55,186 nucleotides of DNA from Natrialba asiatica DSM 12278. GTDB lineage: Archaea > Halobacteriota > Halobacteria > Halobacteriales > Natrialbaceae. The notes below the pieces were generated by a model. That model made no database searches, was not told where the DNA came from, and saw only the letters and a program-made list of their open reading frames with translations. Position 1 is the stretch's first letter, and every line of letters starts with the position of its first letter. The translations under genes and the position numbers were made by a program. Below are positions 15,687-54,446 of this stretch, one piece after another. Location of the stretch: contig NZ_AOIO01000003.1 in assembly GCF_000337555.1 (NCBI RefSeq), positions 59,636-114,821 on the forward strand, written 5' to 3'.

Positions 15687-15696
15687 CGCCCGCCCG

Positions 15697-36622: not shown

Positions 36623-37948
36623 ATGGTCGGCGCAACCGTACTAGCCGCGAATATCGGTATCGCAGTCGCAATCGTCCTCTCGCTAATCATCGCCCTCGAT
36701 ATCAATCCCGCCGTCTCGCTGATCGTGGGTGCGTTGTACATGGGTATCGCATCCGGACTGGGGCTCAACGAAACGGTTGCGAGCATCGGCGAAGGATTCG
36801 GGGAACTCATGCAAGGGATCGGCATTCCGATTATCTTCGGCATCATGATCGGCATGTTACTCGCGCGGTGCGGTGGTGCCACGCAAATAGCGACCACGCT
36901 TACCGACGCGGTGCCGTCGCGATACGTTCCGTACGCGCTCGGACTGTCCGGTGCGATCGTCGCGGTCCCGGTGTTCTTTGACGTCGCGTTTCTGGTATTG
37001 ATACCGATGGTCATCGCGCTCTGGCAGGAGACCGAACACTCCTATCCGGTCGTCGTCGGCTCGCTCGTCATCGGTGCGGCCGGAGCGCACACGTTCGTTC
37101 CGCCGACGCCGAACCCGCTCGCCGCGCCGGAACTGCTCGAGTTCGGAATCGGCGAGATGATGGTCGCCGGACTGGTGGTCGGGTTCCCTGCGGTCGCGCT
37201 CTCGATAGCCGTCTACGGTCGCGTCGTCTCCCGTCTCTGGGACAGCGAGGAAGATATCGCGGATATCCCGTTCGACGAGGCGGACGAGGAGTGGACCGAC
37301 CGGCCCTCGTTCATCGCGTCGGTGCTGCCGATAGCAGCGCCCATCTTCCTCATCCTCCTGCAAACGACGACGGAGGCCGTGACCGGCGAGCCGAACGTCT
37401 ACCTCGACTTCCTGGGAAGCCGTATCATCGCCTTGCTCGTCGGACTACTCGTCGCGATCGTCGTGTACGTTCGATCCGTCGGGCGCGACGAACTGTCCGA
37501 CGCGTTCTCCGAGGCGACCCGGCCGGCCGGACTCGTGCTGACGATCACCGGTGCCGGCGGGGCGTTCGGATTCGTCATTCAAGAGACCGAAGCGGCCGAC
37601 GCGCTCGTGGACCTGATCGGCGTCAGCGGAGACGGCATCGTCATCGTGTTGCTGGCCTTCCTGATCGGGCTCGTTATGCGCGTCTCGCAGGGTTCCGGAA
37701 CCGTGGCGGGCATCACCGCGATGACGATCATGGCCGGCGTCGAGACGAGCGTCGCGGGATCGGCGATCGCGCTCGCGGCGCTCTCGGGCGGCATGAGCAT
37801 CGGGCACATCAACGACAGCGGGTTCTGGGTCGTGACCGAACTCGCGGGGTTCGAAGTGACCGGTGGACTGAAAACCTACACCCTCGGCGAGGCGATCCTC
37901 TCCGTCTTCGGTCTCGTCGGGGCGATCGGGATAGCCGTTCTCGTGTAG
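36623..37948 (+). CDS. GntP family permease (gluconate/organic-acid)
   Basis: A 441-residue membrane protein with about twelve hydrophobic segments. Seen: GLNETVASIGEGFGELMQGIGIPIIFGIMIG near the start (given here only as its core, GFGELMQGIGIPIIFG), PVFFDVAFLVLIPMV, GAAGAHTFVPPTPNPLAAPE near 157-176, and later MRVSQGSGTVAGITA and MSIGHINDSGFWVVTEL, all GntP-family signatures. Members carry gluconate, glycerate or related hydroxyacids with protons. Between a rhamnose lactonase and lactate-oxidising LutC/LutBA it could move L-lactate or an aldonate (inference). It faces the LutBA gene tail-to-tail 43 bp away. Confidence 0.93.
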   Translation: MVGATVLAANIGIAVAIVLSLIIALDINPAVSLIVGALYMGIASGLGLNETVASIGEGFGELMQGIGIPIIFGIMIGMLLARCGGATQIATTLTDAVPSRYVPYALGLSGAIVAVPVFFDVAFLVLIPMVIALWQETEHSYPVVVGSLVIGAAGAHTFVPPTPNPLAAPELLEFGIGEMMVAGLVVGFPAVALSIAVYGRVVSRLWDSEEDIADIPFDEADEEWTDRPSFIASVLPIAAPIFLILLQTTTEAVTGEPNVYLDFLGSRIIALLVGLLVAIVVYVRSVGRDELSDAFSEATRPAGLVLTITGAGGAFGFVIQETEAADALVDLIGVSGDGIVIVLLAFLIGLVMRVSQGSGTVAGITAMTIMAGVETSVAGSAIALAALSGGMSIGHINDSGFWVVTELAGFEVTGGLKTYTLGEAILSVFGLVGAIGIAVLV

Positions 37949-37991: not shown

Positions 37992-40169
37992 TCACTCGAC
38001 CAGTAGTTCGACCGGATGGCGGGGCTGGCGCTCCAGCAACGCGTCGATCTGTTCGAGACAGGAGGTCCCGCTGGCGACGACCGGCCGACCGCGGACGCCG
38101 TCGTCCTGCAGTTGTTCCCGTAACCGCTCGCCGACGTCCATGCTCAGTTCGTAGTAGTCGGATTTGTAACCGAAGCTGCCGGCCATTCCACAACACTCTA
38201 CGTCGGACGTGCTGACATCGTAGCCGCGGTCTTCGAGGACGGCGACAGTGTAGGGTTCCAGCCCGAGGGTGCGCTGCTGACAGTGGCTGTGGTAGGCGAC
38301 TTCGGCGTCGACGTCCGGAAGCGCCGACGTATCGGCACCGTTCTCGAGGAGTCCGTAGACGTACTCGAGCACTTCGTAGCTTCCGTCGGCGAGTTCGGTG
38401 AACGTCGCCTCGTCGAGGAACTTCTCGTACTCCCGCTGGAACATCGCGTAATCGCTCGGTTCGATGACGACGATATCCCGCCCCGCTTCGATGTGGGGAT
38501 TGAGCGTCTCCGCAACGCGGGTTGCGTGGTCCGTCGCCGTCGACACCATTCCCTGGGAGAGCGGCGCGCGGCCGCTAGAGGGAACCGGTGGGACGACGAC
38601 GTCGACGCCGAGCGCCTCGAGAACCTCGACGGCGGCCTTTCCGCGGTCGACTTGGACGTGATTCGTGTAGAGGTCCGGATACAGGACGGCTCGGCGCTCG
38701 GGGTCGGAGACCGTCGACTCGCGGTCGGCGAACCACTCCACGAGCGTCTCCCGTTCGAACGTCGGCAGCTCGCGGCGGGGATCGATGTCCAGCAGTCGGG
38801 CCATGAGCCGTCGAGACAGATCCGCGTCGGCGAACCAATTCGAGAGCGGGGCCGTCGCGCTACCGAGTTTCGCCACCGTCTCGAAGTTTCCGAAGAACCG
38901 CTTTTGCAGCGGTGCCCCCTCGTCCTCCTCGTCGGGCGTCAGCCCGTCGACGAGCCACTCGGCGGGTTCTTCGCGCTCGCGGTTGCGCCGATCCCTGACG
39001 ACGGTATTGATCCACGGGATGTCGATTCCGACCGGACAGGCGTTCACGCAGCGCGTACAGCCGGTACAGAGATCGTTGAACTCGCCGGCTACGTCCAACC
39101 CCTCGATGCCGGCCTCCCAGCCGGTGGCGATGCCGCCCGAGTACGTCTCGCCGCCGAAGGCGTGACCGCCGACGGACTGGAAGTTCGCACACGAGTTCGA
39201 ACAGGCCGAACACCGGATGCAGTAAAGCGTCTCCCGGAGCTGATCGTCCTCGCGCATCGCCAGGCGACCGTTGTCGACGAGCACCAGGTGGAACTCGCGA
39301 TCGGCGTCGAACGCTGAGATCGGCGTCGTATCGTCCGAGAAATCGACGACCGGCGTCTCCAGGGGCGGTGTCAGAAGCGAGACGTAGGACGTGATGTCCT
39401 GGCCGGTGCCGGAGCGGCCGATGAGTTCGATAAACGGGTGGAAGTCGGCGACGGTCGGGACGATTTTCTCGACGCCCGCAACCGCGATGTGTGTGTCCGT
39501 CGCCGCGACGGTCTTTCGCGCGTTGCCCTCGCTCGTGACCAACGCCATCGTTCCCGTCTCGGCCGCGATGAAGTTCGCGCCGGTCAGCCCGACCTCTGCG
39601 TCGAGAATCCGCTCGCCGAGCGTCTCGCGGGCGAAGTGGGTCAGCTCCTGTGCCGTTTCCAACGGCGTTTCGGGATCGAAGCGCTCGTTGAACAGGTCGG
39701 CGATCGCATCGCGAGATTTGTGGATGGCCGGTGCGACGATGTGGGAGGGCGCTTCGTCGGCGATCTGGAGCACCCACTCGCCGAGGTCCGTTTCGACGAC
39801 GTCGACGCCGTCCGCCGCCAGGGCCTCGTTGACGTCGAGTTCTTCGCTGGTCATCGACTTGCTCTTGACGACCCGCTCGGCGTCTCGCTCGTCGGCAACG
39901 GATCGGATGTAGGCGTTTGCGTCGGCCGCGTCGTCAGCGAGGTACACAGTGCCGCCGTTTTCTTCGACGGTTTCAGTTAACTGATCGAGTAACTCGGGAA
40001 GGCGCTCGATGGCATCTTCCTTGGTAGCTCGCGCCTCGCGCTTCAGTTCCTCGTACTCCTCGAGATCGGACACCGATTCGTATCGTCCCTCGTTGAACGC
40101 CTGCGTATTTGTCTCGACGGCCGCTCCTTCGGTCCGCATCAGTTCGCGGAGTTCGTTTGCCGTCGCCAT
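37992..40169 (-). CDS. Fused LutB-LutA L-lactate dehydrogenase subunit (LUD + Fe-S + CCG)
   Basis: A 725-residue fusion. Residues about 70-300 are the LUD domain (LTGANFIAAETGTMALVTSE near 194-213), followed by 4Fe-4S motifs CIRCSACSNSC at 317-327 and CTGCTRCVNACP at 368-379, as in LutB. From about 480 to the end come CCG domains as in LutA, with AYHSHCQQR near 640 and ECCGMAGSFGY near 672. LutABC oxidises L-lactate to pyruvate with electrons entering the respiratory chain; here B and A are one polypeptide in the order B-A. It follows lutC by 2 bp on the minus strand. Its presence in the rhamnose locus makes sense because the diketo-hydrolase route yields L-lactate. Confidence 0.88.
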   Translation of the reverse strand: MATANELRELMRTEGAAVETNTQAFNEGRYESVSDLEEYEELKREARATKEDAIERLPELLDQLTETVEENGGTVYLADDAADANAYIRSVADERDAERVVKSKSMTSEELDVNEALAADGVDVVETDLGEWVLQIADEAPSHIVAPAIHKSRDAIADLFNERFDPETPLETAQELTHFARETLGERILDAEVGLTGANFIAAETGTMALVTSEGNARKTVAATDTHIAVAGVEKIVPTVADFHPFIELIGRSGTGQDITSYVSLLTPPLETPVVDFSDDTTPISAFDADREFHLVLVDNGRLAMREDDQLRETLYCIRCSACSNSCANFQSVGGHAFGGETYSGGIATGWEAGIEGLDVAGEFNDLCTGCTRCVNACPVGIDIPWINTVVRDRRNREREEPAEWLVDGLTPDEEDEGAPLQKRFFGNFETVAKLGSATAPLSNWFADADLSRRLMARLLDIDPRRELPTFERETLVEWFADRESTVSDPERRAVLYPDLYTNHVQVDRGKAAVEVLEALGVDVVVPPVPSSGRAPLSQGMVSTATDHATRVAETLNPHIEAGRDIVVIEPSDYAMFQREYEKFLDEATFTELADGSYEVLEYVYGLLENGADTSALPDVDAEVAYHSHCQQRTLGLEPYTVAVLEDRGYDVSTSDVECCGMAGSFGYKSDYYELSMDVGERLREQLQDDGVRGRPVVASGTSCLEQIDALLERQPRHPVELLVE

Positions 40170-40171
40170 CG

Positions 40172-40690
40172 TTACTCACCGTCCACGATGAGTACGTGGA
40201 CGTCCCGCGGTCCGTGCGCGCCCGTCACGAGCGCACCCATGTCCGCCGTCGCGCTCGGACCGGTCGCGAGGATCACGCTGTGTCCGGTACGGTCGATTTC
40301 GTCGTGAACCGTCTCGATAGCGGTGTCCATATCCGGGACGATATCGGATTCGCGGAGCACGGCGACGTGGCGATCGACGAACAGGCTCACCAGCTCGCTC
40401 GCACGATCCGTCGGTGTCAGCGCCAGCGATCCGTAATCGCCGATACCCAGTTGCGCACCCGTCACGCCGGTCGTCGCTTCGCGCAACGTTGCGGGCGTCG
40501 GGTCGCCGGTCACGCTCGTGTCGGCGAGCGAGAGCGACGGCTCGTCGAACGCCTCTTCGAGCGGAACGCCGACTGCGGGAGGCGTCACCGTCTCGTCGAG
40601 TTGCTCCCGAAACGACGCGGTCTCTACGGACGTTACCGAGACGCCGACGTCCTCCAGCGATGATTCGAACGATGAACGCGCAGTTGCCAT
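40172..40690 (-). CDS. lutC: LutC-like LUD domain protein
   Basis: A 172-residue LUD-domain protein matching LutC/YkgG. Seen: GVTGAQLGIGDYGSLALTP near 94-112, the strand LFVDRHVAVLRESDIV, and the C-terminal SVILATGPSATADMGALV and GAHGPRDVHVLIVDG typical of the fold. It is the small subunit of the L-lactate utilisation complex. First gene of a two-gene operon with LutBA. An AACTAAG box about 28 bp upstream of the ATG may be its promoter. No separate regulator gene adjoins. Confidence 0.9.
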   Translation of the reverse strand: MATARSSFESSLEDVGVSVTSVETASFREQLDETVTPPAVGVPLEEAFDEPSLSLADTSVTGDPTPATLREATTGVTGAQLGIGDYGSLALTPTDRASELVSLFVDRHVAVLRESDIVPDMDTAIETVHDEIDRTGHSVILATGPSATADMGALVTGAHGPRDVHVLIVDGE

Positions 40691-40853: not shown

Positions 40854-42248
40854 ATGATGGATGACAGTATTACACAAGGGCTCGGGAGGCGCCAGTATCT
40901 AACCGGCCTCGGTGCCGCAGCGGCAGCCGGCCTCGCCGGCTGCATGGGAGGGGGCGGTTCGAGCGGATTGGATTTCTGGCTGTTCGGCGGGACGCCGGCC
41001 GAACGGGAGTACATCAGCAGCCACTACAACAACTACGACGGCGATGTCACCTACCAGCACCAGGAGTGGGGACAGAAGTACCAGATCATCGCCTCGTCGG
41101 CGGCGAACAACAACCTTCCCGACGTGATGGCCGGCCAGGCCCAGCAGGTCCCGGACTACGTCGGTGCCGGTGCCATCGAACCGCTCGACGGCGACGCGTT
41201 CGCCGATCAACTGGACGGAATCAACGACATCTTCGTGGAGGCGAACCTCGAGACGCTCCGCTACGCCGACCTGGGCGACTACGACGGTGAACACCAATAC
41301 GCGCTTCCCGGCGGCTACGCCGACATGGGACCGTTCGTCGATATCCGAACTGACTACCTGGAACAGACCAGCTTTGACGAACCACCTCGAACGTGGTCCG
41401 AACTCGTCCAGTTGGCCGAGGAGATGCAAGACATAGACGAGGTCGATTCGGCCGTAACCACCTCCGGAAACGATCAGGGATTGACGGCCGGCTACTTCAT
41501 CGGCTTCGTCTACGCCAACGGCGGCCGGTACTACGACCCCGACTCGCTCGAGGCGACCATCGATCAGCCGGGCTTCGTCGAAGCCGTCGAACTCTACGAA
41601 GAACTCGCGAGCAACGGACTCTTCCCCAGCGCGATTGCCGAGAACGATCACATCGAGGCCGGTCGACGGCTCATCGAGGGCAATTCCGGGATCTTCATCA
41701 CGTACTCGCACGCGAACGCGGTGATGGAGACGATCGACGCCCCGGACGAGTGGTACGACGGTGAAGGCCACACCGTGACGCGCGCGCCGCTGCCGGAGAG
41801 CCCCTCCGGAAACTTCGAACCGCGAGACCTCCTCTTGCAGAACGCCCAAGCGTTCATGCTGGCCAACGGGACCGAGGATTCGGACGAGCGCGAATCCGCC
41901 TTCGAGTTCATCGAGTGGTGGAACAACGAGGACCAGCTCGCGCCGTGGACCGGCGATACCGAGACCGACGTCGGGATCCGCGGGCGGGTTCCCACGCTCC
42001 AGAGCGCGTTCGACGATCCGCCGGAACTCATGCAGACGGAGTTCGGGGACCTGATCACCCTCTACGAGGAGGATGACCTATTCAACAACACCGCGCGATT
42101 CCCGTCGTTCTCCGGGCTCGCCTCGGTCCAGAGCATCGTCAACCGCAACGTGTTGCAGCCGGTGATGCTCGGCGAAGCGACCGCACAGGAGGCTTGTAGC
42201 GACGCGAACGAGCAGGTCCAGGGTGTTATCGACGATGAACTCGCCTGA
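40854..42248 (+). CDS. ABC sugar-binding lipoprotein (family 1), probable rhamnose/oligosaccharide uptake
   Basis: A 464-residue TAT lipoprotein: GRRQYLTGLGAAAAAGLAGC, twin Arg at 12-13 and lipobox cysteine near 30, then a Gly/Ser linker. The body has the extracellular solute-binding family 1 fold: FWLFGGTPAEREYISSHYNN at the start, SSAANNNLPDVMAGQAQQVP, and RTWSELVQLAEEMQD near 178. It captures a sugar outside the cell for the permeases at 42315 and 43241. A TTTATC box lies about 36 bp upstream of the first ATG. The context, with rhamnose enzymes on both sides, indicates L-rhamnose or rhamnose oligosaccharides (inference). A 9-nt repeat series begins at its stop codon. Confidence 0.93.
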   Translation: MMDDSITQGLGRRQYLTGLGAAAAAGLAGCMGGGGSSGLDFWLFGGTPAEREYISSHYNNYDGDVTYQHQEWGQKYQIIASSAANNNLPDVMAGQAQQVPDYVGAGAIEPLDGDAFADQLDGINDIFVEANLETLRYADLGDYDGEHQYALPGGYADMGPFVDIRTDYLEQTSFDEPPRTWSELVQLAEEMQDIDEVDSAVTTSGNDQGLTAGYFIGFVYANGGRYYDPDSLEATIDQPGFVEAVELYEELASNGLFPSAIAENDHIEAGRRLIEGNSGIFITYSHANAVMETIDAPDEWYDGEGHTVTRAPLPESPSGNFEPRDLLLQNAQAFMLANGTEDSDERESAFEFIEWWNNEDQLAPWTGDTETDVGIRGRVPTLQSAFDDPPELMQTEFGDLITLYEEDDLFNNTARFPSFSGLASVQSIVNRNVLQPVMLGEATAQEACSDANEQVQGVIDDELA

Positions 42249-42300
42249 GAGTGCCGAGAGTGCGAAGAGTGCTGAGAGTACGGAGAGCACTGAGAAAGGA
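42247..42300 (+). repeat. Six degenerate 9-nt tandem repeats between ABC genes
   Basis: Starting within the stop codon of the binding-protein gene the sequence is GAGAGTGCC, GAGAGTGCG, AAGAGTGCT, GAGAGTACG, GAGAGCACT, GAGAAAGGA: six 9-nt units, four to eight bases matching the consensus GAGAGTGCN in each. The last units supply the purine-rich AAGGAG ahead of the permease ATG at 42315. It looks like a slippage-expanded stretch, perhaps tuning expression between the abundant binding protein and the permeases. Confidence 0.6.
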
Positions 42301-42314
42301 GTGTGAGAAGTCAC

Positions 42315-43241
42315 ATGAGTTACGCAGACCAGACCCGATCGGCGTACGGGAACGTAATCGATCGCATTCCGGAGTCGATCAGGGTGTACCTCCCGATCGT
42401 CCCGGTGATGGTACTCGTCGGAGTGTTCATCCTGTATCCGATCGCGCAAGCGGTTTACTCCAGTTTCTTCAGCAAGAGCCTTCTCTCGCCGGACGAGGGG
42501 GAGTTCGTCGGTCTCGCCAATTACCAGGAGATCTGGACGAATCCGGACTTACACCAGGTGCTCTGGAACACGTTCGTCTGGGTTTCGGTCGGCAGCATTG
42601 CGGCGATCGGTTTCGGGTTCGTCCTCGGCTGGCTCCTGTACGAGAAGTTTCCGTATACCAGCGTCGCCAGTGCGATCGTCCTAATTCCGTGGGTACTGCC
42701 CCGCGTCGTCGGGGCGTCGATCTGGCAGTTCATGTTCGGCGGCGACCAGGGGATCATCAACGAACTCCTCGTACAACTGGGCATCGTGGACGACTATATC
42801 GTGATGCTCGGTTCGGGAGAGTTATCGCTGTGGCCACCGATCATCGGGATGATCTGGCGGCTCGCACCGCTGTTTGCGCTGCTGACGCTGACGTCGCTGC
42901 AGGGGATCGATGAACACCTGTACGAGGCCGCGCGGATGGACGGGGCGACGCCCTGGGAACGGTTTCGCTACATCACCCTCCCGATGATGCGGTACAACCT
43001 CGCCATCGGATTCCTGCTGATGTTGATCTACAACATCCGGAACTTCTCGATGGTGTGGGTGATGACGGAGGGTGGACCGGGCGTTTCGAGCAGTACGCTC
43101 CCGGTGATGATCTATAGGACGGCGTTCGTCGACTTTAACGTCGGGCTCGCCTCGGCGCTGTCGGTGCTGCTGTTCGTCGTCCTGCTGGTGTTCTCGTACT
43201 ACTACATCAAGGTCTACGACAAACTTCAGGGTGAGTTCTGA
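42315..43241 (+). CDS. ABC sugar transporter permease (MalF/UgpA type)
   Basis: A 308-residue permease with six hydrophobic segments, CUT1 family. Seen: IVPVMVLVGVFILYPIAQAV at the first helix and the EAA loop YEAARMDGATPWERFRYITL near 206-225 that contacts the ATPase, then LPMMRYNLAIGF. The ATG at 42315 is used; a GTG at 42303 in frame lies within the purine-rich leader. Its stop shares bases with the next gene's start (TGATG), so the two permeases are translationally coupled. Confidence 0.95.
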   Translation: MSYADQTRSAYGNVIDRIPESIRVYLPIVPVMVLVGVFILYPIAQAVYSSFFSKSLLSPDEGEFVGLANYQEIWTNPDLHQVLWNTFVWVSVGSIAAIGFGFVLGWLLYEKFPYTSVASAIVLIPWVLPRVVGASIWQFMFGGDQGIINELLVQLGIVDDYIVMLGSGELSLWPPIIGMIWRLAPLFALLTLTSLQGIDEHLYEAARMDGATPWERFRYITLPMMRYNLAIGFLLMLIYNIRNFSMVWVMTEGGPGVSSSTLPVMIYRTAFVDFNVGLASALSVLLFVVLLVFSYYYIKVYDKLQGEF

Positions 43242-44248
43242 TGGCAACGACTACCGACCCCGATACCGGACCGAGTACCGACGCCGACGCGAATGCGGGC
43301 GATCCGACGGCGGAGTTCCGGAAGAACCAGTCGTGGCTCTTCGACACCACCGCGGGGACGTACCTCCGCAAAATCGTCGTCGGCTTCGTTTCGACCGTCT
43401 CCCTCCTGTACCTCCTCTTTCCGCTGTACTGGATGGTTGTCACGGCGCTGAAATCGACCCAGGAGATCCAACAAATCCCGCCGACGGTGTTCCCCGAGAA
43501 TCCATCACTAGAGGGGTTTCGCCTGGTCATCGAATCGTCGCTCGAGACGGGTGGCTATGCCGGCGTCGTCGAGAACGTCTTCGGTGTGACCATCTCCTCG
43601 GCGATCAACGTCGACGTCATCGGGATCATCCTCAACAGCCTGAAGGTCTCTATCGGCGCTGGTGTTATCGCCGTCGTGTTGGGGACGATTGCGTCGTACG
43701 TCCTCTCACGTCGGGAGTTCCGCGGGAAGAACGCGCTAATGAGCGTCTTGCTCGCGTCGCTGATGTTCCCCGGGACCGCGATCATGGTCCCCGAATGGGA
43801 ACTCATCAATACCCTGGACCTCTACGATACGCATCTCTCGCTGATACTCATCTACGGGGCGATGACGTCGCCGTTCGTCGTCTGGCTCATGAAGGGGTTC
43901 TTCGACGAGTTCCCGGATTCGATCATCGAGGCCTCTCGCATCGACCAGTGTTCGTCCGTCGAGACGTTCTGGTACGTCATCGTCCCGATGGCGCGCAATT
44001 CCCTCATCGCGTCGTTCATCTTCGCCTTCCTGCTGGCGTGGAACGAACTCGTGTTCGCGCTGACGCTGCTAGACAATCAGAACTATACCGTTCCGCCGGG
44101 CCTGCTTACCTTCGTCCAAGGATTCAACACCCAGTGGAACGTCGTCGCCGCGGCGTCGATTATCGTCTCCCTTCCGGTGTTGCTCGGCCTGGCCTACATC
44201 CAGCGGTACTTCGTGCAGGGACTGACCGGCGGCGCGATCAAGGGCTAA
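43241..44248 (+). CDS. ABC sugar transporter permease (MalG/UgpE type)
   Basis: A 335-residue CUT1 permease with six hydrophobic segments and a hydrophilic Asp-rich N-terminal tail of about 30 residues (TTDPDTGPSTDADANAGDP). Seen: LLYLLFPLYWMVVTALKST, LMKGFFDEFPDSIIEASRID (EAA loop near 215-235) with the following CSSVETFWYVIVPMARN. There is an insertion of about 30 residues between the first helix and the core, with VVENVFGVTISSAINVDVI. Pairs with the 42315 permease and uses the ATPase at 44310. Confidence 0.95.
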   Translation: MATTTDPDTGPSTDADANAGDPTAEFRKNQSWLFDTTAGTYLRKIVVGFVSTVSLLYLLFPLYWMVVTALKSTQEIQQIPPTVFPENPSLEGFRLVIESSLETGGYAGVVENVFGVTISSAINVDVIGIILNSLKVSIGAGVIAVVLGTIASYVLSRREFRGKNALMSVLLASLMFPGTAIMVPEWELINTLDLYDTHLSLILIYGAMTSPFVVWLMKGFFDEFPDSIIEASRIDQCSSVETFWYVIVPMARNSLIASFIFAFLLAWNELVFALTLLDNQNYTVPPGLLTFVQGFNTQWNVVAAASIIVSLPVLLGLAYIQRYFVQGLTGGAIKG

Positions 44249-44277
44249 TCCCGCTCAGTCTCTCGAACAGACGCTAC

Positions 44278-44285
44278 TTTTAATA
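44278..44285 (+). promoter_or_regulatory. TATA box of the ABC ATPase gene
   Basis: TTTTAATA, centred 28 bp before the ATG at 44310. The ATPase therefore probably has its own leaderless transcript, separate from the binding protein/permease unit. Confidence 0.55.
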
Positions 44286-44309
44286 TGCGGTAGACGGTAC
44301 CAATTTGCA

Positions 44310-45482
44310 ATGACGCACCTCGAGTTAGACGGTGTTACGAAAGTATTCGGCGATCCCGAGAAGGACGGTGTCGTCGCCGTCGACGATTTACACATCGACG
44401 TTCCCGACGGCGATTTTCTCGTCTTGCTCGGCCCAAGTGGCTGCGGGAAGACGACCACGCTTCGCATGATCGGTGGGCTCGAGGAGCCGACCGCGGGCGA
44501 GGTTCAGTTTGACGGAACCGTCGTTAACGACGTCAAAGCGCGCAACCGGGACGTCGCGATGGTGTTTCAGGACTTCGCGCTGTACCCCCACATGACCGTC
44601 CGAGAGAACCTCGGATTCGGGCTCAAGCGGGAAAATAACGACATGACCGACGGCGAGATCGAAGACCGCGTGACCGAGGTCGCCGAGATGCTGGAGATCG
44701 AGGAGCTACTGAACAACAAGCCGGGCCAGCTCTCGGGCGGCCAGCAACAGCGCGTCGCACTCGGCCGAGCGATCATTCGGGAACCGCGGCTGTTCCTGTT
44801 CGACGAGCCGCTGGCGAACCTCGACGCTCAACTGCGAAAGACGATGCGAACCGAGATCGACGAACTCCAGTCGGACGTGGGAATCACGTCAGCCTACGTC
44901 ACGCACAATCAGGAGGAGGCGATGACCATCGCCGACAAGATCGCCATCCTCAACCACGGGCAGCTTCAGCAGCTCGGGACGCCCGATGCGGTGTTCAACG
45001 AACCGGCGAACCTCTTCGTCGCGCAGTTCGTCGGCAGCCCGAACATGAACCTCTTCGACGGAACGGTCGGCGAGCGAGGCGACGCATACCGCGTCGAGAT
45101 GGACGCCGCGTCGTTCGATATCCCCAAACGACTCGTCGATACTGAATTCGCGACGACGGACGTGCTCGTTGGATTCCGCCCGCAAGACATCTTTCAGGGT
45201 CGCGGCAAGAAGCGGGGCGCGTCCGGCCCGTCGTTCGACGCCGAAGTGCGGGTTATCGAACCGGTCGGTACCGAGGCCGTCGTCCACGGCGATTCGAACT
45301 TCGGCGACATTACCGCGAAGATCGGCGGGTTCCACGGTCTCACCGCCGGCGATGAACTCTCGCTCGCCATCGCGCCCGAACACGTCTACCTGTTCGATGC
45401 CCGGACCGAGGCGTTGCTCAAAGGACGCCTTATCGCCGAGCGTGCCGACACCCAGCCGCCGGCTGACGGCGTCGAGGTTTGA
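44310..45482 (+). CDS. ABC sugar transporter ATPase (UgpC/MalK/MsmX type)
   Basis: A 390-residue CUT1 ATPase. Seen: Walker [10 protein letters not shown] near 43-51, Q-loop [14 protein letters not shown], signature [15 protein letters not shown], Walker [17 protein letters not shown], switch VTHNQEEAM, then a C-terminal TOBE/regulatory domain of about 150 residues ([33 protein letters not shown]). It powers the two permeases upstream and by the family may serve more than one importer. The gap of 61 bp and its own TATA box suggest separate transcription. Confidence 0.95.
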
Positions 45483-45637: not shown

Positions 45638-46702
45638 ATGAGTTACGCAAGCTCAGCTGCACCAGTAATTATGAAAGCAATCGTTCAGACGGGACCTCGG
45701 TCCGTCGAGACACAGGATCGAGAACGGCCCGAACCGAATGCCGATGAAGTGCTCGTAAAGGTCCATACAGCAGGGTTGTGTGGAAGTGATGCACACGCAT
45801 ACAAATACGACGGCGGCTACGAGTGGGTCCCGATTCCGCGGATCATGGGCCACGAGTACGCCGGCGAGGTCGTCGCCGTCGGTGCTGCCGTCGAAACGTT
45901 CGCCGAAGGCGATAAAATCGTCGAGGAACCGATCCACGACTGCGGCCACTGTCTCCAGTGTAAGAACGGCCAACCGAACGTCTGCCAAAACTTCTCGATC
46001 ACCGGCATGCACCGCGACGGTGCCTACGCGGAGTACGTCACCGTCGATCCGGGACACCTCCACGTCGTTCCCGAAGACGTTCCGCTCCGCCACGCGGCGA
46101 TCACGGAACCGACCAGCATCGCTACACGCGCCGTCCTTTCACGATCCGTAACGACACCCGGCGATGACGTTCTCATCGAAGGGCCGGGTCCGATCGGCGT
46201 TCTCGTCGCGGCCGTCGCAGACTCCCTGGGAGCGAACGTTATCGTCTCCGGACTCGATCAGGACGCCCAGTATCGACTGCCGCTACTCGAAGAACTCGGT
46301 ATCGAGACGGTCAACGTTCAGTCCGAAGACCTCGACGAACGCGCCGACGAGTTCACCGACGGAAGCGGGTTCGATGTCGTCTTCGACTCGACCGGCCATC
46401 ACACTGGTATTGGAACCGCCGTCGATTCCGCTCGCAAGGGCGGTCAGGTCGTCGTCGTCGGCATTCCGAACGAGAGCAGCGAGGTCACGCTCACCTCGGT
46501 CGTTCGCGGTGAGATCGAGGTCAATACCTCCTACGGGTCGACGTGGACGAACTTCGAACAGGCGCTTCGACTCATGGAACGCGGAGAGATAGCCATCGAT
46601 CAGATCCTCGATCCATCCTATAGCGCGGACGATCCCGCAGGTGCGTTCGAGGCGTTCCTCGATTCCGAAACCTGCAAGCCGGTGTTCCAGTTCGACGAGT
46701 GA
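45638..46702 (+). CDS. Zinc-binding medium-chain dehydrogenase in the rhamnose locus
   Basis: A 354-residue zinc alcohol dehydrogenase (MDR, sorbitol/threonine dehydrogenase group). Seen: catalytic-zinc ligands in GLCGSDAHA (Cys48) and MGHEYAGEV (His/Glu near 70-71), the structural zinc cluster CGHCLQCKNGQPNVC at 101-115, and the nucleotide fold EGPGPIGVLVAAVADSLGA. It oxidises a secondary alcohol with NAD(P)+. In this locus it may perform one of the two oxidations of rhamnose degradation, either of L-rhamnose or of 2-keto-3-deoxy-L-rhamnonate (inference). The family usually starts at MKAIVQ (45671), but the TATA box points to 45638, adding 11 residues. Confidence 0.9.
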   Translation: MSYASSAAPVIMKAIVQTGPRSVETQDRERPEPNADEVLVKVHTAGLCGSDAHAYKYDGGYEWVPIPRIMGHEYAGEVVAVGAAVETFAEGDKIVEEPIHDCGHCLQCKNGQPNVCQNFSITGMHRDGAYAEYVTVDPGHLHVVPEDVPLRHAAITEPTSIATRAVLSRSVTTPGDDVLIEGPGPIGVLVAAVADSLGANVIVSGLDQDAQYRLPLLEELGIETVNVQSEDLDERADEFTDGSGFDVVFDSTGHHTGIGTAVDSARKGGQVVVVGIPNESSEVTLTSVVRGEIEVNTSYGSTWTNFEQALRLMERGEIAIDQILDPSYSADDPAGAFEAFLDSETCKPVFQFDE

Positions 46703-46819
46703 GCGGAGAGTCACCGTGAGACGCAATAGAAAGCGTTGTTATTCGCAGAATCACCGTTGGGTCCCGTTCGAGGCGCGTGAATCGACGCCTCGGGGACCCC
46801 ACGACCGACCGGGGCGTGC

Positions 46820-47218
46820 TCAAATATCGTTCCGGACGCCCAATTCGAACGTTACCGCGGTGACGCGGGCATTGGACGCTTGCACCGTCGCCGTCCCACC
46901 GTTGAACGCCGGGCGGACGCGCTGCCAGCCGGTCGTTCGAACCCCGGTCCCCGATTCGATCGCCGCAGGGTCCGTGACCGCGGTTCGTCGACCCGGCGAG
47001 TCCAACAGCGCGATTCGGACGGCACCGCCGGCGTCGTCATCGACCGGACTGAGGCGCGCGGTCACTCTCGCATAGAGAGGCGTCGCCGGCGTCGCCCGTC
47101 GGATATCGAGGGTCGTCGGCGTGTCGCCGAACTCGTCTCCCTCGCGGACGACCGGTGCCTCGTCCTGCAGCCCTGTCGTAGAGATCGTAGTCAGATGGCT
47201 GCGTGGCTTTTTCGTCAT
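46820..47218 (-). CDS. Hypothetical protein homologous to the C-terminal domain of the BNR protein
   Basis: A 132-residue protein with no signal peptide. From about residue 30 it parallels the last 100 residues of the neighbour at 47215: TPATPLYARVTARLS against TVPATPAYARGTVALK, WQRVRPAFNGGTATVQ against WAKIPQAFRAGFVTVQ, and FELGVRND against LEIGYHD. It is thus a free copy of that beta-rich C-terminal domain. Its ATG overlaps the stop of the BNR gene (ATGA), so the two are co-translated. Function unknown; a carbohydrate-binding or assembly domain is possible. Without a signal it may stay in the cytoplasm or leave with a partner. Confidence 0.75.
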   Translation of the reverse strand: MTKKPRSHLTTISTTGLQDEAPVVREGDEFGDTPTTLDIRRATPATPLYARVTARLSPVDDDAGGAVRIALLDSPGRRTAVTDPAAIESGTGVRTTGWQRVRPAFNGGTATVQASNARVTAVTFELGVRNDI

Positions 47219-49110
47219 TGGGATGCACCTCCATGGGGAGCGTCCGTGTTGCCACCAGTCGGGTCGTGATAGCCGATCTCGAGGACCGCATCGGAGACGA
47301 CGGCGTCTCTCCCGTCCGACCCGGCCCGCAACTGGACGGTGACGAATCCGGCTCGGAACGCCTGTGGAATCTTCGCCCAGGCCGTGGTCCCGTCGTCCTC
47401 GATCTCGACGGGATCGCCGTAGGTCGTTCCGTGCTCGCCCTGGGCCTTCACTCTAGCTTCGACGGTCATATCGGGATTCGATTTCAGTGCGACGGTCCCC
47501 CGCGCGTACGCCGGCGTCGCCGGCACGGTCGTCTCCGTGATAGCAAGCGCCGCGCTCGTATCCTCGAACGTCGAACTCGCAACCGAGAGCGGCGGGTCGA
47601 CGGCGGTCGTAGACGCATACACGTCTAGGTCGTCCGGCTCGTCCGGCTTGCCGGAGAGGTCGATCTCCCGATTCGATCGGTTCAACCGGTCGAGGTCGAT
47701 ATCGGTGACGCCCAGCAGCGAGTGGGCGCTCCAGGGAACGTCACCGACGGTCTGCTGGTGGTCGATGTAACTGAGGACGCGATCCTCCCGCCACCGGGCG
47801 GGGTCGATGTGGACGTCGCTCCAGGTTACGTTCCGCTTGTAGAGAACCGACGTCTGCCACGCCCCGTCTTGCTTCTCGACGAGAAGCGGCCAGCTTCCGT
47901 GCACGAAGTCTCGCGTGAGAATGTGAACGTCTCCGTCATCGTCGACGACGATCCCCATTCGACCGATCGGAGACGCGACCACGCCGGGGCCGCCGAGGTC
48001 GATATCGGTGGTGCGGTTCGTCGCGGGTTCGGTCACCCACTTGCCGCCGTCGCTGCCGTCGCCGTCGTCACCGCCGTCTCCCTCGTCGAGGAAGGCGTGG
48101 AACACCTGCGTGTGGCCGTTCTCGTCGTCGCGGTAGTACGCGACGTGCGGAGCGCCGGTCCGCGGATCGTAGCCCGCCCAACCCTGGTTGATGAAGTTAC
48201 TGCCCGGTTCTATCGGATCGACGACCTCCGCGTCTTCGGCCGTGATCGGCAGGGAGTAGGGCGTCCCGTCGCTTCGCTCCCAGGTCTCGCCGCCGTCGGT
48301 GCTTCGCGCGTACGAGAGGTCGACGTTGGTCTGTACGTTCCAGGAGCCCCGCCAGTTGAAGAAGTAGTGAAGCACCCCGTCTTCCGACTGTACGAGGTTC
48401 CACATGTACGAGTTCTGTTCGCCCTCGCCGTCGATGAGCGGGTGCTGGAGCACCTCCCAGGTCGCTCGGTCGGGGTGCCATCTGTTCAGCATCCAGTTGC
48501 CGGCACCGGACATCCCCTCGCGGTAGCCGGCCAGGAGCGTCCCGTCGAGCAACCGCGCAAACTCGAGATACGTGACGCTCGACTCGTCCCGGCCGGTCAT
48601 TCCGACGCGCTCGTCCCCGAACGATCCGATGTCCTCCGAGTTCGCGCTCCGTCGCCACCGTATCTCGGAGTCGCGCGTGTTGTAGTTCAGAAAGACGTGT
48701 CCGTCTGGTCCGATGCCGACGCCCGGCGTCCAGTGACCATCCCGCTCGTCGATCTGGATATCGAGCCGGTTCCGCTCCCACTCGCCGGCCGGGAGTTCGC
48801 GCGCGGCAACGACGAGTTCACCGTCGTGGGTCCAGTAGGCGTAGTACTGGCGATCATTGTACGTCGTCAATCGCGGCTGGAACGGCGGCGTATCGGTCTG
48901 AGCGTTTCCCAGCCCGTTCTGCGTGAGAACGTGCCGTTCGAGCGCCTCGGCGCGTTCCCGACCGCCCGGCCGTCGCCCCGCCGCGACGCGACCGGCGGCC
49001 AGGGTTGACGCGCCGACCAGTCCGCTCGCGGCCAGGAACGTGCGCCGCTGAATTGAACTCGATACACCCGTCTCCGCCTTCCGCGTTTGCTGGTTTGTGT
49101 CCGGTGTCAT
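47215..49110 (-). CDS. TAT-exported BNR-repeat protein, possible polysaccharide lyase/glycosidase
   Basis: A 631-residue exported protein. The N-terminus has a twin-arginine signal, SIQRRTFLAASGLVGASTLA. The central part (about 60-420) has the BNR_4 type beta-propeller pattern: YNDRQYYAYWTHDGELVVAA, DGHVFLNYNTRDSEIRWRRS, SYMWNLVQSEDGVLHYFFNW, LSYARSTDGGETWER and GWAGYDPRTGAPHVAYYRDD. BNR_4 proteins include ulvan and related lyases acting on rhamnose-containing polysaccharide; the rhamnose genes beside it fit such a substrate, but activity is inference. An Asp/Gly-rich linker (DEGDGGDDGDGSDGG) and a beta-rich C-terminal domain follow. Start at 49110 gives MTPDTNQQ; an ATG at 49164 is possible. 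Confidence 0.8.
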   Translation of the reverse strand: MTPDTNQQTRKAETGVSSSIQRRTFLAASGLVGASTLAAGRVAAGRRPGGRERAEALERHVLTQNGLGNAQTDTPPFQPRLTTYNDRQYYAYWTHDGELVVAARELPAGEWERNRLDIQIDERDGHWTPGVGIGPDGHVFLNYNTRDSEIRWRRSANSEDIGSFGDERVGMTGRDESSVTYLEFARLLDGTLLAGYREGMSGAGNWMLNRWHPDRATWEVLQHPLIDGEGEQNSYMWNLVQSEDGVLHYFFNWRGSWNVQTNVDLSYARSTDGGETWERSDGTPYSLPITAEDAEVVDPIEPGSNFINQGWAGYDPRTGAPHVAYYRDDENGHTQVFHAFLDEGDGGDDGDGSDGGKWVTEPATNRTTDIDLGGPGVVASPIGRMGIVVDDDGDVHILTRDFVHGSWPLLVEKQDGAWQTSVLYKRNVTWSDVHIDPARWREDRVLSYIDHQQTVGDVPWSAHSLLGVTDIDLDRLNRSNREIDLSGKPDEPDDLDVYASTTAVDPPLSVASSTFEDTSAALAITETTVPATPAYARGTVALKSNPDMTVEARVKAQGEHGTTYGDPVEIEDDGTTAWAKIPQAFRAGFVTVQLRAGSDGRDAVVSDAVLEIGYHDPTGGNTDAPHGGASQ

Positions 49111-49414
49111 TGCTGGTGTCCGTCGCTGTCTCGGGGATCGGCCGACCGTCGGTGGTCCGTCCACATCGACGCGGTCGACTCGACGGCGAGCCTGCGGTCG
49201 CCGCCGTGTTCTTTGGTAACTTCACACACCAATCCCCGAACTGAACTCTCAGCGAGCGGTGTGATAATTCTTTGGCTGTCATTCGTCCGCTCTAGAACAC
49301 GCTTTTGCGTACTCGTTCCCGAACGGTTTCACCGAACTCGGTATCGAAGGTTCGAACAGTGCAAAAGATTTTATCGTTGCCGAATGGAGTCAGCGTGTAC
49401 ACGAGCTAGATACT
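49111..49414 (+). promoter_or_regulatory. Divergent promoter region, with operator-like site near 49394
   Basis: The 304 bases between the BNR gene and the rhamnonate dehydratase hold no gene. TTTTATCG at about 49368-49375 is a TATA-like box for the dehydratase. CGTGTACACG (49394-49403), a perfect 10-bp palindrome, lies just where transcription would start and 11 bp before the ATG at 49415, a fitting operator position. Confidence 0.45.
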
Positions 49415-50626
49415 ATGGAAATCACAGCGATATCCGCGACCAACGTCAGCACCGAATCCTGGGGTGAGTTCGTCGAATTCCCGCTGGTCACCGTGATGAG
49501 CAAGTACGACGAGTACAACAACGCCGAGGGTGACAATCCCCAGGCCCGTCGGAAGTGGATGGGGCCGGTCGGCGACGTCGTCGTCGAAATCGAGACCGAC
49601 GCTGGAATCACCGGCGTCGGCCACGGCAACTGGGCGACGGGTGCCATCGCGACGATCGTCGACGAGACACTCTCGAAACTCGTCGTCGGCGAAGACCCCC
49701 GCGAGCGTGAGAAGCTCTGGGACATGATGTACCGCGCAACGATCCCCTTCGGCCGCAAGGGCGCGGCAATCGAGGCCATCAGCGCGGTCGACCTCGCACT
49801 GTGGGACATCGCCGGCAAAGAGGCCGACAAACCGGTCTACGAACTGCTCGGCGGTCCCGTAAACGACGAGATCCCCTGCTACGCCAGCAACCTCCACCCG
49901 GTCGATCACGAGACGCTCGCCGAGGAGGCGATCGACTACGCCGAGCAGGGCTTCGACGCGATGAAACTGCGCTTCCGGTACGGGCCCGAAGCGGGTCGGA
50001 AGGGAATGGAGGAAAACGAGAGGATCGTCGAGACCGTCCGCGACGCCGTCGGCGACGAACTCGAGATCGCCGGCGACGCCTACATGGGCTGGAGCGTCAA
50101 GTACGCCACAAAGATGGTCCAACGTCTCGAACCCTACGACATGGCGTGGGTCGAGGAACCGGTCATCCCGGACGACATCGACGGCTACGCCGAGGTGCGC
50201 GAAGCCGCGCCGATGCCGATCTCCGGCGGCGAACACGAGTTCACCCGCTGGGGGCACAAGCAACTGCTCGAACGCGAGGCGGTCGATATCTTGCAGCCGG
50301 ATATCCACCGCTGTGGGGGCCTGACGGAGCTGCAGAAAATCGATGCGATGGCCAGCGCTCACGACGTGCCGGTGATTCCCCACACGGGGACGAATCCGCA
50401 CCTGCACTTCATCGCCGCCTCGACCAACGCGCCGATGGCCGAGTACTTCCCGATCCCCGAGTGGTACACGGAACGCCAGGCCGAGCAGGACAAGGATTCG
50501 ACCTACGCGGACGCCATCTACGCGAATCCACCGCAGGCCGAGGACGGGACCCTCTCGCTGCCCGACGGCGTCGGCCTGAGCGCCGAACTCAACCGCGAAG
50601 CGCTCGATCACTTCGCCGTGGAGTGA
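49415..50626 (+). CDS. Enolase-superfamily dehydratase, probable L-rhamnonate dehydratase
   Basis: A 403-residue protein of the mandelate racemase/muconate lactonising group. Seen: VTVMSKYDEYN near 26-36, AISAVDLALWDIAGKEADKP, MKLRFRYGPEAG, a first metal ligand Asp in EIAGDAYMGWSVKYATK, second in AWVEEPVIPDD, third in ISGGEHEF, then VDILQPDIHRCGGLTEL and the catalytic His region IPHTGTNPHLHF. The YATK, SGEH and QPDxxxCGGLT blocks closely resemble bacterial L-rhamnonate dehydratase RhmD. It would convert L-rhamnonate to 2-keto-3-deoxy-L-rhamnonate. Followed by the luciferase-like gene after 2 bp, so in one operon with it. Confidence 0.88.
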   Translation: MEITAISATNVSTESWGEFVEFPLVTVMSKYDEYNNAEGDNPQARRKWMGPVGDVVVEIETDAGITGVGHGNWATGAIATIVDETLSKLVVGEDPREREKLWDMMYRATIPFGRKGAAIEAISAVDLALWDIAGKEADKPVYELLGGPVNDEIPCYASNLHPVDHETLAEEAIDYAEQGFDAMKLRFRYGPEAGRKGMEENERIVETVRDAVGDELEIAGDAYMGWSVKYATKMVQRLEPYDMAWVEEPVIPDDIDGYAEVREAAPMPISGGEHEFTRWGHKQLLEREAVDILQPDIHRCGGLTELQKIDAMASAHDVPVIPHTGTNPHLHFIAASTNAPMAEYFPIPEWYTERQAEQDKDSTYADAIYANPPQAEDGTLSLPDGVGLSAELNREALDHFAVE

Positions 50627-50628
50627 CC

Positions 50629-51663
50629 ATGACGGACGTCACCTTCGAGTACAACGTTCCCGTCTTCGCCGGCGCACCGGACGAGGGAGACGACGAACCC
50701 GTTCACCGAGACACGCCGCGGTACGAATCGCTGAATTGGGAGACGACCAAGGCGGGCGTCGAGAAAGCCGAAGAACTCGGGTTCGACGCAGCGTGGGCAC
50801 CGGACCACCTGCTCCTCGGCCGCGACCACGCCGAGTACGAGTGTTGGACGCTCCTGTCGGCGATGGCCGGTTTTACCGACGATATCAATCTCGGGTCGCT
50901 CGTCCTCTGTAACGACTACCGAAATCCCGCGCTCGTCGCGAAGATGGCCGCTACCCTGGACGTGATCTCCGACGGTCGACTCGAACTCGGGCTCGGGGCC
51001 GGCTGGCACGAGTCCGAGTACGATGCCTACGGGTGGGAGTACCGCGACGGATTCGAGCGGCTGATGCGTCTCGACGAATCGATCCGGCTGCTGAAGGAGA
51101 TGTGGGCGACCGATGTCGGCGAAGGCGCGACCTTCGACGGCGACCGTTACGAGATCGAGGACGCCTACTGCGATCCCGGTCCCGTGCAGGACCCGCATCC
51201 ACCGATTCTCGTCGGCGGCCAGGGCGAAGACGTGACGCTCAAACTCGTCGCGAAACACGCGGACGTGTGGAACACGGACGTCTTCAACGGCGATATCGAG
51301 ACGTTGAACCACAAGATCGAGGTCATCGAAGACCACTGCGAGACGGTCGGACGCGATCCCGACGAGATCGAGTACTCCTGGGACGGTCACGTAATCTGTA
51401 CGCGCGACGAGGAGAAGTTCGATCGGCTGCTCGACCTGATGACGCCGATTCAGTTCGAGGCGGAGTACACGGACCAGACCCCGATAGAGACCGAGGCGGA
51501 CGCCCGCGAGTACTTCATTATGGGCTCGCCCGAGGAGTGTGCCGGTGCGATCGAACGGCGGATCGAGGCCGGCGTCACGAAGTTCCAGTGCTGGTTCATC
51601 GACTTCCCGGAGACAGACGGGATGGAACTGTTCGCGGACGAAGTGATGTCCGAGTTCCGGTGA
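50629..51663 (+). CDS. Luciferase-like (LLM class) flavin/F420-dependent oxidoreductase
   Basis: A 344-residue TIM-barrel protein of the bacterial luciferase-like group. Seen: KAEELGFDAAWAPDHLLL near 42-58, INLGSLVLCNDYRNPALVAK, DVISDGRLELGLGAGWHESEYDAYG near 104-128 (core GRLELGLGAGW), PPILVGGQGEDVTLKLVAKHAD and AGVTKFQCWFIDFPE at the end. Families of this fold use FMN or coenzyme F420. Archaeal and actinobacterial F420 members include sugar-phosphate dehydrogenases. It starts 2 bp after the rhamnonate dehydratase, so it is almost surely in the same transcript, suggesting a role in rhamnose catabolism rather than a monooxygenase of alkanes (inference). Cofactor and reaction are not established. 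Confidence 0.85.
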   Translation: MTDVTFEYNVPVFAGAPDEGDDEPVHRDTPRYESLNWETTKAGVEKAEELGFDAAWAPDHLLLGRDHAEYECWTLLSAMAGFTDDINLGSLVLCNDYRNPALVAKMAATLDVISDGRLELGLGAGWHESEYDAYGWEYRDGFERLMRLDESIRLLKEMWATDVGEGATFDGDRYEIEDAYCDPGPVQDPHPPILVGGQGEDVTLKLVAKHADVWNTDVFNGDIETLNHKIEVIEDHCETVGRDPDEIEYSWDGHVICTRDEEKFDRLLDLMTPIQFEAEYTDQTPIETEADAREYFIMGSPEECAGAIERRIEAGVTKFQCWFIDFPETDGMELFADEVMSEFR

Positions 51664-52774: not shown

Positions 52775-52793
52775 TATGTGAACATCCCACATA
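52775..52793. promoter_or_regulatory. Inverted repeat over the IclR start, probable autoregulatory site
   Basis: TATGTG (52775-52780) and CACATA (52788-52793) form a perfect 6-bp inverted repeat with 7 bp between. It overlaps the first base of the IclR ATG, downstream of a weak TTTTT-containing box near 52765, where a bound protein would influence its own transcription. Confidence 0.45.
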
Positions 52794-53551
52794 TGTCGAG
52801 CACGGTTCCGGTCAAGGCGACGAAGATCTCGTTAGAGATCGTGGAGGTGCTCCGAGAACGCAACGGAGCGGGGGTTTCCGAAGTGGCTGCTCACGTCGAT
52901 AAGCCCACGAGTACCGTTCACGACCATCTCCGGACGCTCACTCAGGAGGGCTATCTGGTGAAAGAGGACGGCGAGTACTACATCAGCACTCGCTTTCTGC
53001 AACTCGGCGACCAGGCCCGTTCTCGAAAGAAGGTGTTCGAGATTGCTCGCCCGGAAATCGTCGAGTTGGCCGAAGAAACGGGCGAACACGCGAACCTCAT
53101 GATTGAAGAACACGGGCTCGGCGTCTTCCTGTACAAGGCCCGCGGGATTGATGCCGTCCAGCTCGATACGCACGCCGGCATGCGCGTCCCCCTCCAGACG
53201 ACGGCCCTCGGGAAAACGATCATGGCGTTTCGGCCGCGCGACGAGGTCGAGGCCATCCTCGATCGCCACGGGCTTCCGAAGGTAACTGAGAGCACGATCG
53301 CGGATCGGGACGAACTCTTCGACGTTCTCGATCGGGTGGCAGAGCGCGGCTACGCGTACGACGACGAAGAGCGCGTCAAGGGGATGCGATGCGTTGCTGC
53401 CCCGATCACGGACGAGACCGATCGGGCCATCGCGGCCGTGAGCGTTTCCGGACCGAAGAGTCGGATGCAGTCGGACCGTTTTACCGACGAAATTCCCGAA
53501 CGCATCCGCCGGTGTGCAAACGTCGTCGAGGTGAACCTCACCTACTCGTAG
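52793..53551 (+). CDS. IclR family transcriptional regulator of the rhamnose locus
   Basis: A 252-residue regulator. Seen: N-terminal winged helix ATKISLEIVEVLRERNGAGV with SEVAAHVDKPTSTVHDHLRTL (recognition helix) and EYYISTRFLQLGDQ, then the effector domain with RPEIVELAEETGEHANLMI, LQTTALGKTIMAF near 138-150, RGYAYDDEERVKGMRCVAAPI and ISVSGP-like AAVSVSGPKSRM. IclR-type regulators in haloarchaea control sugar catabolism, including the rhamnose activator of Haloferax volcanii. Here it likely controls the genes around it, with a rhamnose-pathway intermediate as signal (inference). Start at 52793; the frame is open upstream but belongs to the pseudogene region. Confidence 0.93.
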   Translation: MSSTVPVKATKISLEIVEVLRERNGAGVSEVAAHVDKPTSTVHDHLRTLTQEGYLVKEDGEYYISTRFLQLGDQARSRKKVFEIARPEIVELAEETGEHANLMIEEHGLGVFLYKARGIDAVQLDTHAGMRVPLQTTALGKTIMAFRPRDEVEAILDRHGLPKVTESTIADRDELFDVLDRVAERGYAYDDEERVKGMRCVAAPITDETDRAIAAVSVSGPKSRMQSDRFTDEIPERIRRCANVVEVNLTYS

Positions 53552-53597: not shown

Positions 53598-54446
53598 ATG
53601 CAGTTTGTCCGATACACAACCGGCGGAGCCCCGCAGTGGGGCGTCCGTCGCAACGACGAGATCGTTCCGTTAGCGGGCCTTCGAGAAACGGTATCGTACC
53701 AACAGCTAACCGACGCCGGCTTTCTCCGAGTCGTCGACGATGCCGTCGACGCCGCCGACGAGTTGGCGCTTCCGGCGACCGAGGCGAACCTGCTCGCTCC
53801 CGTCCCACGGCCGGGAAAAATCGTGTGCGTCGGATTGAACTATCACGATCACGCTGAAGAACAGAACGAGCCGGTCCCCGACCGCCCGCTCCTGTTCGGG
53901 AAAGCCGGAACGGCCGTGACGAATCCGGGAGATCCGATCGTCCATCCGTCGGCACTCGACGAGGTCGACTACGAGGTCGAACTCGGCGTCGTCATCGGGC
54001 GGACCGCCAAGGACGTTTCCGCGGACGACGCCTCGGACTACATCGCCGGCTACACGGCGATAAACGACGTTAGCGGTCGCGATGCCCAGTTCGCGGACGA
54101 GCAGTTCTTCCGCGGAAAGAGCTACGATACGTTCGCCCCGATGGGTCCGACGCTCGTCCCCGATACTCGACTCGATCCGTCGCAGTTAGACGTCGCCTGT
54201 CGCGTCAACGGGGAGACGATGCAGTCTTCGAACACGCAGGAGTTCATCTTCAACATTGCTGAACTCGTCGAGTACATTAGCGGTATCACGACGCTTCGCC
54301 CGGGAGACGTTATCTCGACCGGGACGCCCGGCGGTGTCGGCATTTTCCGGGACCCACCTGAACTGCTCAAGCCCGGTGATACCGTCGAAGTCGAGGTCGA
54401 CGGAATCGGAACGCTAACGAATCACGTTGTCGCCGAACGCGAGTAG
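53598..54446 (+). CDS. Fumarylacetoacetate hydrolase family protein, probable 2,4-diketo-3-deoxy-L-rhamnonate hydrolase
   Basis: A 282-residue FAH-family enzyme. Seen: the N-terminal MQFVRYTTGGAPQWGVR, then KIVCVGLNYHDHAEE, RPLLFGKAGTAVTNPGDPI, metal ligands in YEVELGVVIG (two Glu) and the later Asp in TAINDVSGRDAQF, KSYDTFAPMGP and TLRPGDVISTGTPGGVG. FAH members cleave C-C bonds of diketoacids with a divalent metal. In the diketo-hydrolase path of L-rhamnose degradation this step gives pyruvate and L-lactate, and the surrounding genes match. Other FAH substrates (fumarylpyruvate-like acids) are possible. An ATG at 53598 directly follows an in-frame GTG at 53595; it follows the IclR gene by 46 bp. 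Confidence 0.88.
   Translation: MQFVRYTTGGAPQWGVRRNDEIVPLAGLRETVSYQQLTDAGFLRVVDDAVDAADELALPATEANLLAPVPRPGKIVCVGLNYHDHAEEQNEPVPDRPLLFGKAGTAVTNPGDPIVHPSALDEVDYEVELGVVIGRTAKDVSADDASDYIAGYTAINDVSGRDAQFADEQFFRGKSYDTFAPMGPTLVPDTRLDPSQLDVACRVNGETMQSSNTQEFIFNIAELVEYISGITTLRPGDVISTGTPGGVGIFRDPPELLKPGDTVEVEVDGIGTLTNHVVAERE

Follow-up and report, generated by a model that had tools for sequence, protein, structure and literature searches.

Haloferax volcanii reportedly degrades L-rhamnose through the rhc pathway, a diketo-hydrolase route attributed to Reinhardt et al. in 2019. Orthologs of the Haloferax genes rhcC, rhcD, rhcE and rhcF, of the IclR regulator and of the ABC transporter are also present in Natrialba asiatica. 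N. asiatica differs in lacking the short-chain dehydrogenase (SDR) gene that most Haloferax clusters have after rhcF and in carrying a rhamnosidase-like gene between rhcE and rhcD; its gene order is otherwise Haloarcula-like. Haloferax was represented by seven species or strains other than H. volcanii, and all seven carry after rhcD the same gene for a luciferase-like (LLM) oxidoreductase that is the subject of this work.

Dehydrogenases for the 2-keto-3-deoxy-L-rhamnonate (KDR) step have been described as SDR-type (Sphingomonas LRA5) and MDR-type (Sulfobacillus) enzymes (PMC5674754). The F420-dependent glucose-6-phosphate and sugar-6-phosphate dehydrogenases FGD and FSD (PMC6279831) share the luciferase-like fold with the LLM (Z ~33 to 5lxe and 3b4y) and also its Asp-His pair, and we propose for the LLM an analogous oxidation of an aldose at C1. 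The LLM belongs to another subfamily, however; it is missing the active-site Glu and Trp of FGD and FSD, and its proposed substrate is a free deoxy-sugar. Halophilic archaea make F420, the role of which is stated to be undetermined in these organisms (PMC8498797, PMC8305020).

Gene content of the rhc cluster

The window, the whole stretch of DNA that was analyzed, comprises 55,186 nt of N. asiatica DSM 12278 (NZ_AOIO01000003.1:59,636-114,821, forward strand; genome 99.8% complete) and holds what, judged from its sequence, is a haloarchaeal rhc cluster predicted to break down L-rhamnose via the diketo-hydrolase route. The L-rhamnose mutarotase gene rhaM (35223..35522, minus strand; PF05336; 66% identity to the Haloarcula gene) is followed by rhcC for an L-rhamnono-lactonase of the amidohydrolase family (35600..36469, plus strand; PF04909; 79% identity to annotated rhcC) and by an adjoining GntP-family permease gene (36569..37948, plus strand; PF02447). 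Next comes a LUD-domain pair of the LUD/LutB type, for which we propose L-lactate oxidation (37992..40690, minus strand; both proteins with PF02589, the larger also with Fe-S domains); its members are 83% and 57% identical to the Haloarcula pair and match the NCBIfam models quin_L_LdhH and TIGR00273, both below cut-off. A CUT1-type ABC sugar transporter (binding protein with PF01547, two permeases and an ATPase; 40854..45482, plus strand) has the same gene order as in Haloarcula rhc clusters, with 64 to 86% identity. The remaining rhc genes all lie on the plus strand: rhcE for a zinc MDR enzyme (45671..46702; PF08240/PF00107), rhcD for the L-rhamnonate dehydratase of the enolase superfamily (49415..50626; PF13378/PF02746; 74 to 78% identity to annotated rhcD), the gene for the LLM, a 344-aa oxidoreductase and candidate L-rhamnose 1-dehydrogenase (50629..51663; PF00296, E 6e-51), a gene for an IclR-type, RhcR-like regulator (52793..53551; PF01614/PF09339; 81% identity to the Haloarcula rhc cluster regulator) and rhcF for an FAH hydrolase (53598..54446; PF01557; 82% identity to annotated rhcF), whose best NCBIfam match, NF053535, is below cut-off.

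In Haloarcula rhcE and rhcD are neighbors; the gene that intervenes here encodes a secreted-looking BNR_4 protein that resembles the alpha-L-rhamnosidase BT3686 (47215..49164, minus strand; PF15892) and scores 228 bits with NF052497, below the cut-off of 700. Between the LLM and IclR genes, positions 51763-52710 hold an apparent remnant of a secreted GH78-type rhamnosidase, truncated and interrupted by a stop; in relatives, glycoside hydrolase family 78 genes are found close to rhc loci (L017, L128). Further upstream, what is probably a cluster for hydroxyacid use (2638-15800) encodes two large FAD/Fe-S oxidases and a D-2-hydroxyacid dehydrogenase, along with a DUF4147/MOFRL protein and an L-lactate permease.

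The initial annotation of this DNA had placed a zinc MDR gene at 45638 and a luciferase-like gene 2 bp past the dehydratase gene. Both are there: the MDR reading frame spans 45638-46702 with PF08240 and PF00107, its orthologs beginning at the internal ATG at 45671, and the ATG of the LLM gene at 50629 follows the rhcD stop at 50626. The accompanying count of exactly two oxidoreductases holds for the interval 45638-51663 but not for the whole window, where there are several more, namely the L-lactate dehydrogenase pair of the LUD/LutB type (37992-40690), the two FAD/Fe-S oxidases (2638-5601 and 10735-13749), the D-2-hydroxyacid dehydrogenase (7986-8921) and a cytochrome P450 (17503-18729).

Treating the MDR enzyme and the LLM as two dehydrogenases of which neither is assigned fails for the former, which is RhcE: its MDR domains, its 80 to 83% identity to annotated rhcE and the matching cluster order all place it there. 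The premise that an SDR should be expected at the KDR step was wrong as well, since MDR enzymes of that activity have been described, one of them in 2015 (PMC5674754), and RhcE orthologs of at least 67% identity occur in 31 of 31 dehydratase-carrying genomes. The 2015 enzyme and RhcE are likened here by family and step, sharing the superfamily (PF08240 plus a zinc-binding dehydrogenase domain) and the assigned reaction. With orthologs in all 31 genomes and this MDR-type precedent, RhcE is the predicted MDR-type dehydrogenase of the KDR step, which thus has its enzyme and does not call for an SDR.

The window contains no SDR, as had been claimed: tblastn with three haloarchaeal SDRs gave zero matches in it, and each of the 33 SDR matches in the genome lies outside. 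An SDR just beyond the window would have spoken against a special role of the LLM, and none was found, the nearest ones on the contig being about 24 kb to the right (C3:138983) and about 32 kb to the left (C3:27302-28048). With the Haloarcula or Haloferax SDR as the query, no ortholog was detected in the N. asiatica genome at E 1e-50; its closest protein to the Haloarcula SDR has 39% identity (E 3.7e-41). At E <= 1e-50 the SDR ortholog is present in 12 of the 31 RhcD genomes (11 at >=60% identity) and in 4 of the 13 from the 195-genome sample described below, and it is missing from N. asiatica and eight other genomes that are at least 97% complete. The SDR of Haloferax and some Haloarcula, for which the best family model is glucose 1-dehydrogenase, is likely the L-rhamnose dehydrogenase there.

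The rhcD-LLM pair

A scan with the dehydratase as the query, taking one genome per species, gave 31 haloarchaeal loci. The initial annotation had asked whether the pairing of dehydratase and LLM is conserved across haloarchaeal genomes, and it is, far beyond chance: each of the 31 loci has an LLM ortholog immediately downstream of rhcD, starting -4 to +13 bp from the rhcD stop and mostly 2 to 3 bp after it. All 19 plasmid records whose haloarchaeal RhcD is at least 73% identical show the same arrangement, as do all 13 RhcD-positive members of a 195-genome sample drawn from the order; the three sets overlap. Other genes were found within 400 bp of rhcD less often among the 31 loci (RhcE in 19, RhcC in 2, the mutarotase in 1 and the SDR in none). 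Outside haloarchaea, no LLM match was found at 12 dehydratase loci from more distant groups, Thermoplasmata and Planctomycetota among them.

Such close adjacency, mostly 2 to 3 bp and always directly after the dehydratase, suggests an LLM that acts in the next step or in a complex, and hence at the KDR step or elsewhere downstream of the dehydratase in the pathway, be it as a second KDR dehydrogenase or as a companion of RhcD. We consider this quite improbable, however, because the enzyme named for the KDR step, RhcE, is itself present in 31/31 genomes and belongs to a type known to have that activity.

The LLM is also the best conserved of the rhc proteins, with a mean pairwise identity of 84%, compared with 81% for RhcD, 78% for the SDR, 76% for RhcE and 72% for RhcC. 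RhcD falls into two clades with full support, a split that has no counterpart in the LLM tree, and Halopiger and the window share 90% identity in the LLM and 76% in RhcD. The mismatch between the trees means that the pair has been reassorted and its adjacency retained; the split in RhcD may reflect gene exchange or a difference in substrate preference. Neighbors that have recombined, together with similar LLMs in other contexts, would also fit a pairing that merely descends from a shared ancestral operon, the second gene serving redox reactions broadly rather than rhamnose degradation in particular. This explanation is very improbable, given that the loci are otherwise freely shuffled and the pair alone has been kept in 31/31, and that LLM orthologs of at least 78% identity were found away from rhcD only in one 66%-complete genome. 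The LLM is a genuinely unexplained, universally conserved enzyme in a known pathway and an orphan relative to the steps described.

Fold and cofactor of the LLM

Membership of the LLM superfamily is clear from the PF00296 score (174 bits; cut-off, 27.9) and from the AlphaFold model (pLDDT 88), which has the TIM-barrel LLM fold and aligns to LLM structures with Z values of 30 to 35. F420-labeled entries take the first four places among the NCBIfam models (227 to 146 bits), and the best FMN model reaches 101. The highest-scoring of them, TIGR03560 (Rv1855c), stands for an LLM subfamily of which no characterized member was found in the literature searched; the window protein, at 227.2 to 228.3 bits, stays 3 to 4 bits under the cut-off of 231.4, which its 87% identical Haloferax ortholog passes (236.6 bits). 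The N. asiatica genome encodes an F420:NADP reductase (246.9 bits; cut-off, 149.8) and a CofD-family protein, the latter being weak support for F420 because the CofD model also matches organisms without this cofactor.

Structure comparison with F420 and FMN members, as the initial annotation had suggested, gave a divided answer. VIA-align put F420 enzymes first (Mer and Adf, Z 33.5 to 34.6) and FMN enzymes at 33 or below, a lead of only 1 to 2 Z, with no more than about 2 Z separating Mer, Adf, FGD and the FMN enzymes, whereas Foldseek ranked FMN-type enzymes first. The closest solved sequence according to phmmer, a Bacillus cereus LLM (3rao), is also FMN-type. When aligned to fHMAD and haloarchaeal FGD-like LLMs, the LLM keeps Asp59-His60 and has GAGWHESEY in place of GxGExxNE; the FGD/Adf active-site Trp, which follows Asp-His, and Glu are absent from it. 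A two-component FMN monooxygenase would be expected to have a flavin reductase partner in its cluster, and none is annotated in the PGAP-annotated clusters (L014-L017, L126-L128); one may be encoded elsewhere in the genome.

The proposal would have lost ground if the relatives of the LLM had been FMN-dependent enzymes with no link to rhamnose. The link to rhamnose is very strong (31/31), which removes that half of the objection; on the other half, the family scores lean toward F420, and Foldseek and phmmer toward FMN. The fold comparison favors neither cofactor clearly, and our lean toward F420 as the probable cofactor of the LLM comes from the family scores.

A candidate for the first step

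The lactonase RhcC has an ortholog in 31/31 RhcD genomes, and a lactone-forming dehydrogenase is therefore needed in all 31. The SDR is present in only 11 to 12 of these, and RhcC and RhcE are universal; thus, the LLM is the sole universal orphan and the L-rhamnose 1-dehydrogenase the sole universal gap. Haloterrigena turkmenica and Haladaptatus halobius have SDR-free clusters in which the other core steps are covered and the LLM is present, and in the latter the lactonase gene lies 76 bp downstream of the LLM gene. Filling the slot from this gene distribution, we suggest tentatively, with somewhat less than even confidence, that the LLM is the L-rhamnose 1-dehydrogenase of the first step.

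What was directly established is the gene order, the universal pairing, the orthology of the other enzymes and the absence of the SDR ortholog from N. asiatica. In the pathway that we propose, the mutarotase would be followed by the dehydrogenase, the lactonase RhcC, the dehydratase RhcD, the MDR 4-dehydrogenase RhcE and the hydrolase RhcF, which would release pyruvate and L-lactate, the latter then undergoing LUD-type oxidation. The LLM would oxidize the anomeric carbon (C1) of L-rhamnose to yield L-rhamnonolactone, a substrate and direction that we infer from the context, most likely with F420 as the cofactor, and F420H2 would be reoxidized by the F420:NADP reductase encoded in the genome.

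Several observations speak against a role of the LLM in the first step. The SDR that coexists with it in 11 to 12 of the 31 genomes is itself a plausible L-rhamnose dehydrogenase, any of the more than 30 other SDRs of N. asiatica could perform the reaction, and the LLM gene adjoins rhcD rather than rhcC in most genomes. The missing FGD/Adf Glu and Trp, the FMN-type leaders in Foldseek and phmmer and an LLM clade near peptidase genes (see below) count against it too. Coexistence with the SDR, the many other SDRs and the position beside rhcD, together with the first rank of FMN-type enzymes in Foldseek and phmmer, are consistent with an FMN- or F420-dependent LLM that acts on a side substrate arriving with rhamnose, such as rhamnose or rhamnonate in O-methylated, oxidized or other modified form, and passes its product to RhcD, with an SDR encoded elsewhere oxidizing L-rhamnose. 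We regard this as rather unlikely: a strictly universal pairing and the highest conservation suggest a core step, the family scores lean toward F420, and the clusters have no annotated flavin reductase partner. Assigning the LLM to the first step does not make it a mere replacement for the SDR, a reading that is unsupported because both occur in Haloferax and some Haloarcula, where two first-step enzymes may coexist.

Other sugar clusters contain a second LLM clade that is 42 to 47% identical to the rhc LLMs and has the HRDxP and PDHxMLG signatures in common with them. Its neighbors are a mutarotase and an SMP-30 lactonase (L015, L016, L119), a lactonase and a mutarotase (L104), a dehydratase (L100), or an FAH hydrolase, a lactonase and a dehydratase (L101). 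A third related clade has peptidase genes, not sugar genes, around it; therefore, the wider LLM subfamily is not all sugar linked. A tree of the three clades gave no settled branching order. It is possible, though we hold this with some doubt, that haloarchaea use F420-dependent LLM dehydrogenases of a subfamily with no known sugar-oxidizing members to oxidize free L-rhamnose and, via the sister clade, other sugars. The open-access literature searched makes no mention of such an LLM or F420 enzyme for rhamnose; an earlier remark in the 2019 Haloferax paper is possible.

Additional LLM and cofactor genes were seen in the compared loci. An unassigned, complete-looking sugar-acid cluster (L101, 1293-14862) encodes an FGD-like LLM and another LLM, two ABC binding proteins, an FAH hydrolase, a lactonase, a Gfo/Idh-type protein, an IclR regulator, a dehydratase and an aldolase-like open reading frame. 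In Natrialbaceae, another LLM family, starting with MKFGIFP, occurs repeatedly near the rhcD-LLM pair and an oligopeptide-type ABC transporter (L048, L053, L056, L127), and N. asiatica itself has a member beside an SDR (L117, 8838-9824; G000:C7). On pHTUR01 of H. turkmenica, the mycofactocin set mftE, A, B2, C and F (L126, 20293-25029) lies about 7 kb past the rhcD-LLM-mutarotase block.

In summary, a pathway regarded as solved has a universally conserved component without an assigned step. With a candidate F420 enzyme at the core of a sugar pathway already under study, the role of F420 can be tested directly in H. volcanii or other haloarchaea, and neighboring clusters offer further LLM candidates for sugar oxidation. 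If the proposal is correct, F420 would have a defined part in the catabolism of halophilic archaea.
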